Shown here piece by piece: positions 13,399 to 25,076 of a stretch of DNA of 39,509 nucleotides. Position 1 is the stretch's first letter, and each line of letters opens with the position of its first letter. The notes below the pieces were generated by a model. That model worked only from the letters and a program-made list of their open reading frames with translations, ran no database searches and had not been told where the DNA came from. A program made the position numbers and the translations under genes. This stretch comes from Treponema sp. (GTDB lineage Bacteria > Spirochaetota > Spirochaetia > Treponematales > Breznakiellaceae), in assembly GCA_009785215.1 (NCBI GenBank), contig WQWU01000022.1, positions 1 through 39,509 of the forward strand, read 5' to 3'.

Positions 13399-16300
13399 TT
13401 AGATAATTGATGCTGCTACAGGTTTAGGAGCTGCAGGTTTCTTTGCAGCAGGTTTTTTTGCTGCGGCTTTCTTTGCAGCAGGTTTCTTTGCGCCGGCTTT
13501 CTTTGCGCCAGCTTTCTTAGCGGCTGGTTTTTTTACAGCTTTCTTTGCGCCAGCTTTTTTGGCTGGTTTTTTTACGGCTTTCTTTGCGCCAGCTTTTTTA
13601 ACTGTCTTTTTTGCGCCAGCTTTTTTGGCTGGTTTTTTTACAGCTTTCTTCGCTGCTGGTTTTTTTACAGCTTTTTTAACTGTTTTTTTTGCGCCAGCTT
13701 TCTTAGCGCCGGTTTTTTTTGCACCAGCTTTTTTTGCAGCGGGTTTCTTCTTCGCTGCTGGTTTCTTTGCAGATGTTACTGCCATCTTTTTGTCCCCCTT
13801 ACCAGGTTTTTTACTGCCTTTCACCTTGGCAGTGGCGGGTGTTGTCTTACCTGACACCCCTCCCTTTATGTCTTTTCCGGAATTTTTGATAACAGCCTGC
13901 GCTCCGGCAAGGCGTGCTAATGGAACCCGGAATGGTGAACATGATACATAGCTAAATCCTGCTCTATAACAGAAGTCGATAGATGCCGGATCGCCGCCGT
14001 GTTCGCCGCAGATCCCAACTTTGAGATCTGGTTTTGTGGTTCTTCCCGCTTCGATTGCGTGTTCGATAAGACCGCCAACACCATGCTGATCGAGTGTCTG
14101 GAACGGTTCGTCATCAAGAATACCTTTCTGTAAATAGATAGGCAAGAATGATGCAACGTCGTCACGGCTGAAGCCGAAAGTCATTTGTGTAAGATCGTTT
14201 GTTCCAAAGCTGAAGAAATCTGCATAATCGGCAACTGTGCCGGCGCGGATTGCAGCGCGGGGAACTTCGATCATTGTACCAATAGATACAGGCACTGTTA
14301 CGCCTGCAGCTTTAAATACTCTTTCTAAAACTTTTTCTGCATTCGGGCGCAGGAATTTAAGTTCTCTTGGAGTAACAACAAGCGGAATCATAATTTCGGG
14401 GTTTACAGGAATTTTCTGTTTTGCACAGTCAGCCGCCGCTAAAGCGATAGCTTCTACCTGCATGTCGTAAATTTCGGGGTAAGTTACCGCCAAACGACAG
14501 CCGCGATGACCCAACATCGGGTTACTTTCTACAAGAGTATCGATTTTTGTTGCTAATTTGTTAGCATCAAGCCCTAAATGATTTGCAAGTTCTGCAATTT
14601 CTTCCTTTGAATGAGGTACAAACTCATGCAACGGCGGGTCTAAAAGCCTGATTGTAACAGGACGGCCTTCCATTGCCTTGAAAATACCAAAGAAATCTTT
14701 CTGCTGTAATGGAAGAATCTTTTTTAATTCTTTCTTTCTGTCTTCTTCTGTTTCGGAAAGAATCATTGCGCGGAAGTGAACAAGTTTTTCTTTTTCAAAG
14801 AACATATGTTCTGTACGGCAAAGACCAATACCCTGAGCGCCGAAATCGAATGCACGTTTTGCATCTTCCGGCTGATCAGCGTTAGTTCTAACGTCAAATC
14901 CTTTGATTTTTCCGCGAACTGCGCCTTTTCTAACTTCATCGCACCATTTAAGGAAGGTTTCCATTTCTTTGGAGATTGCAGGAGCTACAAGCGGCATTTT
15001 TCCTTCATATACTTCGCCGGATGAACCATCAATTGTGATCCAGTCGCCTTCTTTATATGTTTTTCCGCCGATATCTACTGTTCCGTCGCCAAGCAATAAG
15101 ACATTTTTTGCGCCGACAATACAAGGTGTTCCCATTCCGCGTGCTACTACTGCAGCGTGAGATGTCATACCGCCTGTCGAAGTTAAAATACCCTGCGCAA
15201 CAACCATTCCGCCGATATCTTCGGGGCTGGTTTCTTTGCGGACCATCATTACTTTTTCGCCTCTTTCATGCCATGCTTCCGCTTCTTTTGCTGTGTAAAC
15301 AATTCTGCCGGATGCAGCGCCTGGAGATGCATTTAAACCTTTTGTTAAAGGTTTTGCTTCTTTTTGAGCTTTAACATCGATCATTGGGTGAAGTAATTGA
15401 TCAAGATGACCAGGTGTTACGCGTAAAATAGCTGTATTTTTGTCGATTAATCCTTCGTTTACCATGTCGATTGCACATTTTACTGCAGCAGTACCGGCTC
15501 TTTTACCGTTTCTTGTCTGCAGAATGTAAAGAATTCCCTGCTGAACAGTGAATTCCATGTCCTGCATATCTTTAAAATGTTTTTCCAGTCTGTTTTTAAT
15601 ACCGATTAACTGTTTATAAATCGCAGGATTTTTCTTTTCCAATGTAGAAATTCTTTCCGGTGTTCTGATACCTGCAACAACGTCTTCACCTTGTGCATTC
15701 ATTAAGTATTCACCGTAGAATTCATTAACACCTGTTGATGGATCGCGGCTGAAACATACGCCTGTGCCGGAATCATCGCCGAAATTACCATAAACCATTG
15801 ATTGAACGTTTACAGCAGTTCCTTTTAAACCCTTAATGTTCTCTATCTGGCGGTATTTAACAGCTCTTTCGTTCATCCATGAACCAAAAACTGCATTAAT
15901 TGAACCCCATAATTGATCCATCGGATTTTGCGGAAAGTCTTTACCTGAATGTTTTTTTACGATTTGTTTGTATTCACCAACAAGTTTTTCTAAATCTGCA
16001 GCTGTAAGGTCGGTATCTAATTCAACTTTTTTGCTTTTTTTAATGGAAGTAAGTACTTCTTCGAAATGGTCGTGGTCAACGCCCATAACAACATCACCGT
16101 ACATTTGAATGAAACGCCTGTAAGCATCCCATGCAAATCTTGGATTCTTGGTCTTATTTGAAAGCCCAACAACCGCTTTATCGCTCATACCAAGGTTAAG
16201 GATTGTATCCATCATACCTGGTAATGATGCTGCAGCCCCTGAACGGACAGAAACTAAAAGCGGATCATTCGGATCGCCAAGTTTCTTTTTCATTGTTGTT

Positions 16301-16536
16301 TCCAGTTTCTTTAAACTGGCTTCAACTTCTTCTTTAAGTCCAGCAGGATACTTATTTTTATTTTCATAATAAGCAGCGCATACATCTGTAGAAATTGTAA
16401 ATCCCGGCGGAACCGGTATTCCAAGATTAGTCATCTCTGCAAGGTTAGCTCCTTTGCCTCCCAATACTAATCTCATCTTTGCATCTCCTTCTGCTTTACC
16501 ATTGCCGAAGAAGTAAACATTTTTCTGCTTAGCCAT
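13399..16536 (-). CDS. ppdK: Pyruvate, phosphate dikinase with histone H1-like C-terminal tail
   Basis: It interconverts pyruvate, ATP and phosphate with PEP, AMP and PPi; in anaerobes this often runs toward pyruvate and ATP. Residues 1 to about 883 are a normal PPDK: an N-terminal nucleotide-binding domain (GGKGANLAEM, SVRSGAAASLPGMMDT), the central phospho-His domain (GGMTSHAAVVARGMGTPC), and the C-terminal PEP/pyruvate barrel (FGTNDLTQMTFGFSRDD, ICGEHGGDP). About 160 further residues follow, most of them repeats such as KKPAAKKAGAKK, a strongly basic tail absent from ordinary PPDK. I chose the ATG at 16536 because GGAGG lies 6 nt before it; the ATG two codons earlier touches the GGAGG. It is monocistronic, with its own promoter and terminator. 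Confidence 0.97.
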   Translation of the reverse strand: MAKQKNVYFFGNGKAEGDAKMRLVLGGKGANLAEMTNLGIPVPPGFTISTDVCAAYYENKNKYPAGLKEEVEASLKKLETTMKKKLGDPNDPLLVSVRSGAAASLPGMMDTILNLGMSDKAVVGLSNKTKNPRFAWDAYRRFIQMYGDVVMGVDHDHFEEVLTSIKKSKKVELDTDLTAADLEKLVGEYKQIVKKHSGKDFPQNPMDQLWGSINAVFGSWMNERAVKYRQIENIKGLKGTAVNVQSMVYGNFGDDSGTGVCFSRDPSTGVNEFYGEYLMNAQGEDVVAGIRTPERISTLEKKNPAIYKQLIGIKNRLEKHFKDMQDMEFTVQQGILYILQTRNGKRAGTAAVKCAIDMVNEGLIDKNTAILRVTPGHLDQLLHPMIDVKAQKEAKPLTKGLNASPGAASGRIVYTAKEAEAWHERGEKVMMVRKETSPEDIGGMVVAQGILTSTGGMTSHAAVVARGMGTPCIVGAKNVLLLGDGTVDIGGKTYKEGDWITIDGSSGEVYEGKMPLVAPAISKEMETFLKWCDEVRKGAVRGKIKGFDVRTNADQPEDAKRAFDFGAQGIGLCRTEHMFFEKEKLVHFRAMILSETEEDRKKELKKILPLQQKDFFGIFKAMEGRPVTIRLLDPPLHEFVPHSKEEIAELANHLGLDANKLATKIDTLVESNPMLGHRGCRLAVTYPEIYDMQVEAIALAAADCAKQKIPVNPEIMIPLVVTPRELKFLRPNAEKVLERVFKAAGVTVPVSIGTMIEVPRAAIRAGTVADYADFFSFGTNDLTQMTFGFSRDDVASFLPIYLQKGILDDEPFQTLDQHGVGGLIEHAIEAGRTTKPDLKVGICGEHGGDPASIDFCYRAGFSYVSCSPFRVPLARLAGAQAVIKNSGKDIKGGVSGKTTPATAKVKGSKKPGKGDKKMAVTSAKKPAAKKKPAAKKAGAKKTGAKKAGAKKTVKKAVKKPAAKKAVKKPAKKAGAKKTVKKAGAKKAVKKPAKKAGAKKAVKKPAAKKAGAKKAGAKKPAAKKAAAKKPAAKKPAAPKPVAASII
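13402..13770 (-). repeat. Repetitive DNA encoding the Lys/Ala/Pro tail of PPDK
   Basis: The DNA is a run of near-identical 9-15 nt units encoding KKPAA, KKAGA, KKTV and KKAV. Alternate Lys and Ala codons keep copies imperfect. There is no interruption of the frame, which suggests expansion within the coding sequence and selection for a basic product. Confidence 0.9.
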
Positions 16537-16554
16537 TAACATCCTCCATAACTA

Positions 16555-16583
16555 ACTATACCATCTTTTATTTTTTTATGCAA
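16555..16583 (-). promoter_or_regulatory. Promoter of ppdK
   Basis: On the minus strand TTGCAT (16578-16583), 17 nt, then TATAGT (16555-16560) with TG one base before it. The predicted leader is about a dozen nt and contains GGAGG. The -35 lies close to the divergent helicase -10. Confidence 0.7.
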
Positions 16584-16588
16584 GTGTT

Positions 16589-16594
16589 TATAAT
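16589..16594 (+). promoter_or_regulatory. Candidate -10 box of the helicase gene
   Basis: A perfect TATAAT ends 7 nt before the ATG at 16602, so transcription would begin at or next to the start codon. The -35 is poor. Confidence 0.5.
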
Positions 16595-16601
16595 AAATAT
16601 T

Positions 16602-19229
16602 ATGAACTATATTGATCTTCCTGTCTATAGAAATCAAGAAAAAATTTTATTAATGCTAAAAGAAAATCAAGCGCTTGTTGTTGAAAGTCCGACAGGATCA
16701 GGAAAGACAACACAACTGCCGGTAATACTTCATGAAGCGGGTTTTTCCGGAAGCGGTATCATCGGAGTGACTCAGCCAAGACGAATTGCGGCTGTATCGG
16801 TGAGTGAATTCATCGCACGTCAATGCAAAACATCAATTCCGGGATTAATCGGGTATAAAATGCGATTCGCAGACAAAACCAATCACGAAACTAAAATAAA
16901 AATTATGACAGACGGTATTTTGCTTCAGGAGATGAAATTAGATCCGTGGTTATCTAAATACAGCGTTTTACTCGTTGATGAAGCGCATGAACGCAGTTTA
17001 AACATCGATTTTATCCTTGGATTACTTAAAAGAGTGCTTGAAAGCCGCAAAGATTTTAAAGTTATCATCTCTTCTGCAACAATTAATGCAGAAGTTTTCT
17101 CTGAATACTTTAATAATTGCCCGATTGTTAAGATAGAAGCGCAAAGATTTCCTGTAACAATGGTTTATGACGCTGTGAACAATGAACAGAGAGCAGGGAA
17201 TAAAGAGCAGAGAACAGATAGTAATGTTAATTTTAGAGGTAATATAAGCGCAGAAGAAGCAATTTTAATGAAAATAGAGACAATTACTACTCGATTTATA
17301 AGTGAAAAGAGATCAGGAGACATATTGATCTTTCTTTCAGGCGAAAAAATGATCAAAGAATGCATGAATAGGCTTACATTTTCTTCTGTTGGAAAATTTT
17401 TACACATTGTTCCGCTGTACGGCAGACTTGGAAAAGAAGAACAGGAAAAAGTCTTTGAAAATGTTCCAAAAGGGAAAACAAAGGTAGTTATTTCAACAAA
17501 TATTGCAGAAACATCGGTAACTATCGATGGTATCACTGCAGTAATCGATTCCGGTCTTGCAAAATTAAACTGGTACAACCCGTTAACATATACATCAAGC
17601 TTGATTGAATCGCCGATATCGATTGCATCTGCTAATCAACGTAAAGGAAGAGCGGGAAGAACACAAGAAGGAACGTGTTATAGGCTGTATTCACGAAAAG
17701 ATTTTGAAAATCGATCTTTATATACCACAGAAGAAATATTCCGCACAGATTTATCGGAAGTTATATTAAGAATGGCAGATCTTGGCATTACAGACTTTGA
17801 AGACTTTGATTTTATTGCAGCGCCCGAGAAAGCAGGACTATTAAGCGGAATTGAAACATTAAATCTGCTTGATGCATTGGAAAATGACCGCAGCTTATCA
17901 AATATCGGCAAGTTAATGACAGAATTTCCTCTTGCGCCGCGTCAATCACGAATAATTGTCGAAGCAATAATGCGATATCCAGATGTAATCAGAGAAACAA
18001 TCATTGCTGCGGCGTTTTTATCGACACAAAGTCCTTATATTCTTCCTCCCGGCGAAGAAACTGATGCAAGACAAGCGCATCATCGTTTCCGTGATGATAA
18101 CGGCGATTTTGTTTCATACTTAAAACTTTTTAAATCGTACAATGATTCAACAAATAAGGTTAATTTTTGCGAAAAAAATTATTTAGACGAGCGTGCAATG
18201 GCAGAAATAGTCAATGTAACGATGCAATTAGAGGAAATTCTAGCCAATATGAAAATTCCTGTGCATTACCGCTCTCAATCGTTAACAATCGAAGAAATTG
18301 ACGATTATTTATGCTGTATCGGGCGCGGAATGATTCAATTTGTCTGCACAAGAGAAGGAAAAGGTAAAATGGGCTCTTACAGAAGTTTAACTGCAGATAA
18401 AATAATAATTCACCCGGGATCTGTTATGTTTCGTATCGATCCTCAATTTATTGTTGCTGGAGAGATTGTCAGAACATCAAGAATGTATGCAATGTCGGTC
18501 TCTCCGCTTTCAAAAACTGTATTAAATCGAATTGGAGTATGGAATAATCAAGAAGACCTCTCGCGAGGGCGCAGAGACGCAGAGGGAATATTTAGAGAAA
18601 AACTCTCGCAGAGACGCAGAGGCGCAGAGATCGCAGAGAAGAAGAGAGGGAGAAAAGAAAGAGATTTCACCAACAATATCAAGATTTGCGGGGAAGTGTT
18701 CGAGATTATTACCGTGAAAGGAAAGAAAACTGTTGTATTGCAATGGGATAAACTACAGCGTATTCGTGATAATATTTCCTGCGATACTGCTTACAAAGGC
18801 ATGAAAGGTAAAATTATTCTAAAAAAACGAGGCACAAATATTGAATATAATCTTTTGGCTGGCGAAAAATTAAATCTTATCCTTTCATTAACGCCTACTT
18901 TAGATGCCGATAGCGCATTTTCACGTGCATGGCCCCGTAAAGAGAATTATGACTCTGGCGAAAAACTTTCTGCACTATTAAAACACATGGATAGCCTTGC
19001 AAAACCTGTTGTATGGAAGAAAAACTCAAAAGATTTAGGATTTTTAGGACTTTTTACAGACGAAGAAGGAAATTATTGGTTTAGAGCTTCTCGTGGTTTC
19101 CATACAAGCTTAAATGAGAGTCTTTCAAGTTTAGAATCTTTAATTGATGAACTAGGTGAAACGGCAGATACCGAACAAAAAAACATTGTGAATCAATGTT
19201 ATCGCAGATTATCGGGTTATGTGAGTTAA
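16602..19229 (+). CDS. hrpA: DEAH-box RNA helicase, HrpA family
   Basis: It is an ATP-dependent RNA helicase, likely in RNA processing or ribosome rescue. Of the 875 residues, Walker A is SPTGSGKTTQL, motif II is VDEAHERS, motif III SAT, and motifs V-VI are TNIAETSVTIDG and QRKGRAGRTQEG. The helicase-associated (HA2) region and an OB-fold-like region follow. I chose the ATG at 16602, which gives the family-like MNYIDLPVY start and lies 7 nt after TATAAT; an ATG at 16578 is possible. Two segments look inserted: about 18 residues near 190-208 (NNEQRAGNKEQRTDSN) and about 40 low-complexity Arg/Glu residues near 652-690. The latter are encoded by repeat DNA also found downstream and in cysS. It is shorter than E. 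coli HrpA, so HrpB-like is the alternative. Confidence 0.92.
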   Translation: MNYIDLPVYRNQEKILLMLKENQALVVESPTGSGKTTQLPVILHEAGFSGSGIIGVTQPRRIAAVSVSEFIARQCKTSIPGLIGYKMRFADKTNHETKIKIMTDGILLQEMKLDPWLSKYSVLLVDEAHERSLNIDFILGLLKRVLESRKDFKVIISSATINAEVFSEYFNNCPIVKIEAQRFPVTMVYDAVNNEQRAGNKEQRTDSNVNFRGNISAEEAILMKIETITTRFISEKRSGDILIFLSGEKMIKECMNRLTFSSVGKFLHIVPLYGRLGKEEQEKVFENVPKGKTKVVISTNIAETSVTIDGITAVIDSGLAKLNWYNPLTYTSSLIESPISIASANQRKGRAGRTQEGTCYRLYSRKDFENRSLYTTEEIFRTDLSEVILRMADLGITDFEDFDFIAAPEKAGLLSGIETLNLLDALENDRSLSNIGKLMTEFPLAPRQSRIIVEAIMRYPDVIRETIIAAAFLSTQSPYILPPGEETDARQAHHRFRDDNGDFVSYLKLFKSYNDSTNKVNFCEKNYLDERAMAEIVNVTMQLEEILANMKIPVHYRSQSLTIEEIDDYLCCIGRGMIQFVCTREGKGKMGSYRSLTADKIIIHPGSVMFRIDPQFIVAGEIVRTSRMYAMSVSPLSKTVLNRIGVWNNQEDLSRGRRDAEGIFREKLSQRRRGAEIAEKKRGRKERDFTNNIKICGEVFEIITVKGKKTVVLQWDKLQRIRDNISCDTAYKGMKGKIILKKRGTNIEYNLLAGEKLNLILSLTPTLDADSAFSRAWPRKENYDSGEKLSALLKHMDSLAKPVVWKKNSKDLGFLGLFTDEEGNYWFRASRGFHTSLNESLSSLESLIDELGETADTEQKNIVNQCYRRLSGYVS
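17170..17222 (+). repeat. Short direct-repeat insert inside the helicase gene
   Basis: This stretch is made of imperfect repeats of GAACAGAGAGCAGGGAA type and encodes NNEQRAGNKEQRTDSN between two conserved beta strands. It looks like an in-frame low-complexity insertion, distinct from the CGCAGAG family. Confidence 0.55.
18555..18641 (+). repeat. CGCAGAG repeat element, copies 1 and 2, inside hrpA
   Basis: Copy 1 (18555-18586) and copy 2 (18603-18641) both begin CTCTCGC and continue as 8-bp units of CGCAGAGR. They are read in the same frame as LSRGRRDAEG and LSQRRRGAEIAE. Copy 1 matches the cysS copy at 30 of 32 positions. Confidence 0.9.
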
Positions 19230-19240
19230 AATTTCCAAGA

Positions 19241-19281
19241 AGAGTTCTCGCGGAGACGCAGAGCCGCGGAGAGCGCAGAGC
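19241..19281 (+). repeat. CGCAGAG repeat element, copy 3, intergenic
   Basis: It lies 12 nt after the helicase stop codon and starts TTCTCGCGGAGACGCAGAG. It has the same 8-bp periodicity as the intragenic copies. The rest of the 141-nt gap holds the cysS promoter. Confidence 0.88.
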
Positions 19282-19336
19282 GGTTGTTTGATATCTCACA
19301 TTTATAACAAGAAATAAATGATTAATATTAATTATC

Positions 19337-19365
19337 TTGATTTTTTTTTGATATTTCCCTACCCT
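19337..19365 (+). promoter_or_regulatory. Candidate cysS promoter
   Basis: TTGATT, 17 nt, TACCCT, then 5 nt to the ATG. The short distance and lack of Shine-Dalgarno point to a leaderless or nearly leaderless mRNA. Confidence 0.4.
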
Positions 19366-19370
19366 GTAGT

Positions 19371-20873
19371 ATGGCATTTAGTTTTTATAACACTTTAGGA
19401 CGCAGTAAGCAATCTTTTTCGCCTTTGCAGGAAAAAAAGGTGGGTTTTTACGGATGCGGACCAACTGTTTACAATTATGCGCATATCGGAAACATTCGAG
19501 CTTATGTTCATCACGATATTTTGGTTCGATCACTACGCCGTGCAGGATATGATGTTAATCATGTAATGAATATTACCGATGTTGGCCATCTTTCCGATGA
19601 TTCCGATGCCGGCGAAGATAAAATGGTAAAAACTGCCGAAGAACGGGGAAAAAGCGTTCTTGAAATTGCAGATTATTATACAAAAGCTTTTTTTAATGAT
19701 ACAGACAAAATGAACATTACACGCCCTACTATTGTATGCAAAGCGACTGATCATATTAAAGAAATGATCAGTTTAATAGAAAGAATCGAAAAAAACGGCT
19801 TTACTTACCTAACAGGCGGCAATTTATACTTTGATATATCAAAATTTCCGTCTTACGGCGATTTGGCGCTTTTAAAACTTGAAGATTTACAAAAAAGCGA
19901 ACAAACAGAGTTCGCACGCATCGATCAAGACGAAAATAAACGCAACGCAGGCGATTTTGTACTTTGGTTTACAAAAAGCAAGTTTGAAAACCAGGCGCTT
20001 GTTTGGGATAGTCCATGGGGAAAAGGTTATCCAGGCTGGCATATTGAATGTTCTGCAATGAGTATAAAATATCTTGGCGAACAGTTTGATATTCATTGCG
20101 GCGGCATCGATCATATTCCGATTCATCACACCAACGAAATTGCGCAGAGCGAAGCTGCAACTGGTATAACTCCGTGGGTTAAATATTGGCTGCATAATGA
20201 ATTTCTTGTGTTGGACAAAGGAAAAATGTCAAAATCTAAAGGCGGATTTTTAACATTGCAGTCTTTAATCGATGAAGGTTTTGATCCGTTGGATTACAGG
20301 TATTTTTTACTTAGCGGACATTACCGAAGGCAGCTTCAGTTTTCTTTTGAAAGTTTACAGGGTGCAAAGAATTCAAGAAAATCGCTAGTGGAGAAAGTAA
20401 GAGGATTATTAGAAAAGACCTCTCGCGGGGGCGCAGAGGCGCAGAGGGCGCAGGGGGAAGATAAGGGTGAAGAATCAGGGAAAGAGTTAAATATATCTAG
20501 TTATATAGAAGGTTTTGATAAGGCTATCGAGGATGATTTGAATACGCCAAGGGCTTTAGCGGAATTATGGGGGCTTTTAAAGGATGTTCAAGGGTGTAAT
20601 CACTCTACAACTGCTAAAGCGCTGGAAGCCATTTATGATATGGATTCTGTTTTAGGGCTGGGTCTAAAAGAAACAGTTAATAATAAAAATACCGGTACAG
20701 AAGAAAACGAAGAATTAAAGCAGGAAATCGAAGAATTAATAAAAAAACGTATAGAAGCAAAAAAAGCAAAAGATTTTTCTGCTGCCGATAATATAAGACA
20801 AAATCTTAAAGATCGGGGTATAATACTGGAAGACGGGGTTAACGGAACAACTTGGCGCTTTGAGCAGCCCTAA
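19371..20873 (+). CDS. cysS: Cysteinyl-tRNA synthetase
   Basis: It charges tRNA-Cys with cysteine in the cytoplasm. Of the 500 residues, the zinc-site Cys is in FYGCGPTVYNYAHIGN, the HIGH motif appears as HIGN, further zinc ligands are in WHIECSAMS and HHTNEIAQSEA, and the KMSKS loop is KGKMSKSKGG. The C-terminal helical domain with DDLNTPRALAELW is present. Between the catalytic core and that domain, near residue 350, lies a low-complexity insert TSRGGAEAQRAQGEDKGEE encoded by the dispersed CGCAGAG repeat. Its position in a linker suggests it is tolerated. The ATG has no Shine-Dalgarno. The matching tRNA-Cys gene is 8 kb away. The ECF sigma gene follows by 26 nt. Confidence 0.97.
   Translation: MAFSFYNTLGRSKQSFSPLQEKKVGFYGCGPTVYNYAHIGNIRAYVHHDILVRSLRRAGYDVNHVMNITDVGHLSDDSDAGEDKMVKTAEERGKSVLEIADYYTKAFFNDTDKMNITRPTIVCKATDHIKEMISLIERIEKNGFTYLTGGNLYFDISKFPSYGDLALLKLEDLQKSEQTEFARIDQDENKRNAGDFVLWFTKSKFENQALVWDSPWGKGYPGWHIECSAMSIKYLGEQFDIHCGGIDHIPIHHTNEIAQSEAATGITPWVKYWLHNEFLVLDKGKMSKSKGGFLTLQSLIDEGFDPLDYRYFLLSGHYRRQLQFSFESLQGAKNSRKSLVEKVRGLLEKTSRGGAEAQRAQGEDKGEESGKELNISSYIEGFDKAIEDDLNTPRALAELWGLLKDVQGCNHSTTAKALEAIYDMDSVLGLGLKETVNNKNTGTEENEELKQEIEELIKKRIEAKKAKDFSAADNIRQNLKDRGIILEDGVNGTTWRFEQP
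20416..20456 (+). repeat. CGCAGAG repeat element, copy 4, inside cysS
   Basis: It starts GACCTCTCGCGGGGGCGCAG and continues as CGCAGAGG units. It is read as TSRGGAEAQRAQ, a different reading frame from the hrpA copies. Confidence 0.9.
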
Positions 20874-25018: not shown

Positions 25019-25028
25019 TTACGGCTGA

Positions 25029-25076
25029 ATGCGTTACTGCGTAATGCGTTACTGCGTAATGCGTTACTGCGTAACG
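25029..25076. repeat. Three tandem 15-bp repeats between convergent genes
   Basis: ATGCGTTACTGCGTA occurs three times in perfect tandem (25029-25073). The last unit, with the following bases, forms GCGTTAC-TGC-GTAACGC (25060-25076). On the minus strand the array supplies the last codons and stop of the 5'-nucleotidase gene. Confidence 0.92.

Follow-up and report, generated by a model that had tools for sequence, protein, structure and literature searches.

Results

The 39,509-nucleotide stretch of Treponema sp. DNA analysed here (contig WQWU01000022.1 of assembly GCA_009785215.1; hereafter, the window) carries four copies of a short repeat, built on 8-bp CGCAGAG-type units, within and between two genes for conserved proteins. 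The first gene (16578..19229, + strand; Pfam DEAD, Helicase_C, HA2_C, and OB_NTP_bind) encodes an hrpA-type DEAH helicase and holds two copies in frame, copy 1 at 18555..18586 (+; peptide EDLSRGRRDAEG) and copy 2 at 18603..18638 (+; peptide LSQRRRGAEIAE), which are spaced 45 bases and are therefore read in the same frame as each other. Copy 3 (19246..19280, +), an exact match to the search pattern, lies in the intergenic gap between hrpA and cysS, and copy 4 (20421..20455, +; peptide TSRGGAEAQR) lies in frame within cysS (19371..20873, +; Pfam tRNA-synt_1e, DALR_2, and CysS_C), in a frame that differs from that of the hrpA copies. The initial annotation of this DNA had placed the four copies correctly, and its statement that copy 1 and the cysS copy are identical at 30 of 32 positions and yet translated in different frames was reproduced on recomputation (frames 0 and 2). 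The common CTCTCGC start that it described does not apply to copy 3, which starts TTCTCGC. Across the window, CGCAGAGNCGCAGAG was matched nine times at three or fewer mismatches, compared with a mean of 1.21 and a maximum of 4 in 100 shuffles.

The repeat is not confined to the window. In the assembly of the same genome (1.90 Mb, 75% complete), TCTCGCGGAGACGCAGAG gave 72 matches at three or fewer mismatches, versus 6 for the reversed control pattern. The 72 matches group into 53 clusters (members within 250 nt), comprising 23 inverted pairs, in which a weaker second arm was allowed, and 30 single arms; the pair score limit of 26 was our own setting, and the background sample of the pairing test itself includes true arms. 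Two of the 30 single arms are those that flank a GxxExxY gene, described below, and are spaced too widely to cluster. The typical full form reads TCTCGC-NGAG-NCGCNGAG-NCGCAGAG, followed by a short spacer and then the reverse complement, and all three full forms tested folded as DNA hairpins (z -4.6, -4.2, and -3.6). When three stretches of the window were folded, two gave z -1.1 and -0.7 and the cysS copy gave -2.5; the window copies are therefore single arms. Tiny palindromes such as AACATTCCTTTGGAATGT, apparently nested insertions, lie within or adjoin the arms of L025, L030, L001, L076 (C14:33357), and L078 (C23:15538), and the arms of relatives hold similar ones (GTACC..GGTAC and GAACC..GGTTC).

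One intact gene of the PF13366 family (C23:19031-19378) was found in this genome, together with one fragment at a contig end. The intact gene sits between inverted arms of the repeat at 18958(+) and 19447(-), and its product is a GxxExxY protein (TIGR04256); the curated TIGR04256 cut-off was passed by all nine GxxExxY proteins tested, this one included, and also by the Dolichospermum protein L158 considered below. The family (PDDEXK_3 in Pfam) is named by motif only. It combines a PD-(D/E)XK fold with conserved acidic and lysine residues, and nuclease activity is predicted. Among PDB sequences there was no convincing relative (best E, 0.55), and a search of defence and phage families returned weak matches only, to a Cas4-type family, one reverse transcriptase-associated PD-(D/E)XK family, and one CRISPR-associated family. 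We found no paper in the open literature that links GxxExxY/PF13366 proteins to repeats, although an earlier description is possible. Carriage of the gene as phage or plasmid cargo was rejected, GxxExxY matches being present in 0 of 50,697 phage records and 8 of 72,556 plasmid records; a short-pattern scan of viral contigs gave one confirmed locus. In a Sphingomonas parapaucimobilis record described as a plasmid (L250), the GxxExxY gene separates fabD from fabG within a series of genes for fatty-acid synthesis, and a single genome (G042) has pairs of adjacent, divergent PF13366 genes in four places (C9, C12, C22, and C26; L239-L242).

PF13366 was matched in 45 of 117 genomes of the same order, and inverted arms around such genes are common. 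Of 40 order-level genes taken, 30 from the loci returned and 10 picked by hand, 38 had enough flank; inverted flanking repeats scoring at least 28 were found at 32 of these 38, compared with 0 of 348 control positions from up to 29 loci. A contig scan over phyla, using seven cores taken from genes already known to have arms, gave at least 567 confirmed relatives, of which the best 80 were kept and seven lacked enough flank. The score reached at least 28 in 63 of the remaining 73 genes (median, 39) versus 15 of 1,064 pseudo-gene positions in the same loci (median, 18). These 73 loci come from 17 named phyla, except for one that has no phylum, and 16 of the 17 phyla include a locus at or above that score. 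Both arms carried two or more C(A/G)C-NN-(A/C)G units, on either strand, at 53 of the 63 loci, and in the wide set the arms lay at median distances of 32 and 29 nt from the matched core.

Similar proteins tend to have similar arms. From 120 genes, 113 with enough flank, the 96 scoring at least 28 were used to compare protein identity with arm similarity (Spearman coefficient, 0.37; the largest of 999 permutations gave 0.18). On a tree of 34 order-level GxxExxY proteins (37 listed, one dropped for a short flank and two for low arm scores), arm class changed 9 times, versus a shuffled mean of 22.7, and none of 200 shuffles was as low; the CACGAA, CAGGAT, and GATT classes changed once each. The gene of the present genome (L031) falls in a supported clade with genes of other species (L233 and L235) that also have TCTCGC-type arms, and three further CGC-type genes sit elsewhere on the tree. 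Different proteins with different arms also occur within one genome, with three types in G016 and two each in G007, G008, G015, and G012, where the L055 arms of G015 fail to exceed their shuffles. Ten or more arms were present in all four genomes with a CGC-class gene versus 8 of 113 others, and in 6 of 9 genomes with a CACGAAC-class gene versus 11 of 108 others. Gene and arms are thus associated, though not without exception.

The hrpA and cysS insertion sites were followed in relatives by searching HrpA and CysS in 59 genomes and aligning the 30 best loci of each, our own included, with arrays judged by eye. Both inserts lie in variable linkers of conserved proteins, as had been annotated. 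At the HrpA site, array-like DNA was seen in 6 of 30 rows (CGC type in our own, CAC or mixed type in the other five), and no array was seen in the remaining rows. At the CysS site it was seen in 10 of 30 rows, of CGC, CAC, mixed, or GGATT types; the TCTCGC type of the window recurs in one other species (G020), and three rows have both arms in frame. In G013 and G021, whose matches end some 55 to 62 nt apart, the gap between hrpA and cysS showed no arm. Since arrays are absent or of another type in relatives, the inserts come, go, or get replaced at the DNA level. The earlier proposal of mobility at the level of DNA, and not of a protein domain, is thus upheld by the many genomic copies, by their differing frames, and by relatives that lack the segment or have another in its place.

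Site histories could also be read at a cyanobacterial locus. The surroundings of the Dolichospermum gene (L158) were searched in 41 genomes, of which 25 were unread or had nonadjacent flanking matches. Nine genomes, that of L158 included, align across the whole region with the gene. G131, G137, and G138 carry the gene at this site in the opposite orientation and with another arm type (L262-L264 versus L253-L261). The site is empty in G145 and G146, where 34 and 29 nt separate the neighbours and no arm is visible, and G140 and G163 have only a small hairpin at the site that holds the gene in relatives.

A frame survey combined with family searches found ten further conserved genes with arms in open frames, forward and reverse, encoding DusB-like, Dus, TrmD, Dxs, GltX, IspE, UvrC (with both arms in frame), and MutL proteins, an oligopeptide ATP-binding cassette ATPase, and a GFO/IDH oxidoreductase. 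Arms also lie in the gene of a U32-type protein (NCBIfam matches under cut-offs) and in an unmatched 240-amino-acid frame. Translated arms such as LSQRRRGAE, SRRGAEAQ, SLAETQRR, SASPRE, and SLRPCVK use three frames in the forward direction and at least two in reverse. All six frames were free of stops in 33 of 60 arm cores, compared with 296 of 1,200 composition shuffles and 134 of 2,000 random 32-mers from the same loci. Because arms rarely carry stop codons, linker insertions that keep the frame would survive inside genes; the suggestion in the initial annotation that only suitable insertions survive is plausible in this light.

A second family has the same layout. Of 27 loci with PF05635/TIGR02436 four-helix-bundle genes that were tried, 26 had enough flank, and 17 of these had inverted flanking repeats scoring at least 28 (among them L285, L287, L291, L292, L293, and L295), versus 8 of 312 control positions. 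By eye, the arms are mostly arrays of 7-bp units, for example GGGACTN and GTGAATA, and those of L302 form a plain palindrome. As the agent for the repeat of the present genome this family was rejected, there being no match to it in the assembly, which is 75% complete.

Two other repetitive features were seen in the window. A perfect 15-bp tandem repeat, AATGCGTTACTGCGT, is present in 3.1 copies at a gene boundary (25028-25074). At 13399-16542 lies the gene of a phosphoenolpyruvate-utilising protein of the pyruvate phosphate dikinase type, in which a long, imperfect tandem array codes for the C-terminal part; this part resembles the histone H1-like HC2, below the Pfam cut-off.

Discussion

The interpretation that we favour, with slightly better than even confidence, takes the copies in the window to be solo arms of an inverted-repeat element dispersed over the genome, and the nuclease and the arms to form one cognate system, which would resemble the REPIN systems with a nuclease replacing the transposase. 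The full element consists of an arm (TCTCGC and then 8-bp units, CGCNGAGN), a short spacer or the GxxExxY PD-(D/E)XK gene, and an inverted arm. The GxxExxY nuclease most likely acts on arm DNA, either as an extruded hairpin or as an end at the replication fork; repair may then copy single arms or entire elements, either into new sites or in place of resident arms that belong to another type, and those insertions that keep the frame in linkers would persist inside genes. Dispersal, the anatomy of the element, the enclosed gene, the tie of arm classes to protein clades, and the empty and replaced sites were all observed; that the nuclease drives the movement of the arms, and what the DNA step of this movement is, we infer.

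A number of observations weigh against this interpretation. Paired arms are no better conserved than single arms (21.5 versus 21.2 of 26; p 0.74; 68 of the 72 matches), and in 15 strong pairs the arms within a pair are less similar than arms across pairs (median, 29 versus 37), which may reflect selection against perfect palindromes. With within-pair similarity below between-pair similarity, the idea that each element moves as a recent unit with matched arms is unsupported. No target-site duplication was seen by eye at the cyanobacterial sites and the arm clusters of our own genome. Scores fell below 28 at 10 of the 73 wide loci and at 6 of the 38 order-level genes, including both genes of G104 (scores, 19 and 12), which are without clear arms. 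The wide sample is not random for the family, because the cores were chosen from genes with arms and the best 80 relatives were kept. On the protein tree, three arm-class labels (L047, L052, and L067) were set by hand after assignment by regular expression, and the CGC, CAC, and ACC classes changed four times each, where shuffles averaged 5.7 changes and 18 to 20 in 500 gave four or fewer; with counts this close to the shuffled mean, the link between arm and protein is weak in that half of the tree. The genomes counted as carriers were assigned by us from clades, three of them without readable arms, and the 8 and 11 genomes that have 10 or more arms with no assignable cognate gene include several that are more than 90% complete. 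In this assignment, weak or partial matches to PF13366 were left untyped, and such genomes may reflect loss, incomplete assembly, untyped fragments, or a gene that is not needed. Lastly, the unrelated PF05635 genes share the layout, and the layout therefore needs no nuclease. The PF05635 result widens the finding and weakens the claim of a nuclease requirement.

Several of these observations would fit a different account, which we consider rather unlikely, in which the arrays are moved by another cellular agent (reverse transcriptase, Y1 transposase, or template switching during replication), with the GxxExxY and four-helix-bundle genes residing between the arrays as passengers or regulators. 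Such an agent would explain why PF05635 genes share the layout with other, mostly 7-bp, units, why some arm-rich genomes have no assigned GxxExxY gene, and why the CGC, CAC, and ACC classes are weakly clustered on the tree. It sits less easily with the clustering of arm class overall on the GxxExxY tree and with the difference in arm class among paralogues of one genome, and the 3-kb locus around the single Y1 transposase (PF01797) match of our own genome, which is 75% complete, is free of CGC arrays. The gene between the arms, moreover, belongs to PF13366; for our own genome we therefore rejected a reading based on the REP-associated tyrosine transposases (RAYTs).

The arms might instead be homing targets, the nuclease cutting resident arms and repair from another element overwriting the site. 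The different arm types that hrpA, cysS, and the cyanobacterial sites carry by species would follow from this, as would the flipped gene orientation at one site in G131, G138, and G137. Arm-free sites nevertheless exist (G145, G146, and most HrpA rows), and therefore first insertions must also occur; moreover, repeated insertion at a tolerant site would give the same pattern, and homing overlaps with the cognate-system interpretation. As an explanation by itself we judge it improbable. A conserved peptide linker or protein domain without mobility would account for the position of both inserts in variable linkers of conserved proteins, but it is ruled out, to near certainty, by the differing frames, reverse ones included, by the copies outside genes, and by the absence of the segment in relatives.

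The same layout across many phyla suggests an overlooked family of mobile DNA. A still broader generalisation, which we offer tentatively and at less than even confidence, is of a class of mobile DNA found throughout bacteria, with inverted tandem arrays of roughly 7- to 11-bp units as its ends. Each type of array would have a small protein as its partner, a GxxExxY nuclease for CRCNNAG-like and related units and a PF05635 protein for 7-bp units. The protein would drive copying in a manner unlike that of known transposases, and arms in genes would be a source of new protein linkers.

Among known systems, one close comparison is with REPINs (repetitive extragenic palindromic [REP] doublets forming hairpins) and their RAYTs. 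As presented in PMC3116915, these also have short inverted arms with a spacer, fold into hairpins, are dispersed in the genome, and include several arm types per genome, each by its own enzyme gene. They differ in that the enzyme is a Y1 tyrosine transposase, whereas here it is a PD-(D/E)XK protein; the arms here are 8-bp tandem arrays with many copies in genes, and doublets here are not more conserved than singlets. The parallel with Rickettsia palindromic elements that the initial annotation had drawn is apt for the insertion of short palindromic elements in frame in unrelated genes (reviewed in PMC10969869), but it does not extend to a single conserved peptide, since several frames and both strands are used here. 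In our case the arms of one repeat enclose an enzyme gene, whereas the passage on the Rickettsia elements in that review names none. The intervening sequences of 23S rRNA, which encode S23p, are likewise small selfish elements with one short open reading frame according to PMC4990558; they differ in protein family, in units, and in their classical location in rRNA. Members of the corresponding family, 23S_rRNA_IVP (PF05635), also had inverted-repeat flanks in the present scan. The element further resembles miniature inverted-repeat transposable elements, in that it has terminal inverted repeats and also exists as a longer version that encloses a gene of its own.

These findings provide a candidate role for the widespread and unexplained GxxExxY protein family and a candidate source for the CGCAGAG- and CGCAAAG-type repeats of many bacterial phyla. 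They make testable both the spread of short repeats without a known transposase and the entry of such repeats, in frame, into essential genes. If it is true that the nuclease moves its arms, this would represent a new route of DNA mobility and a categorically new finding.
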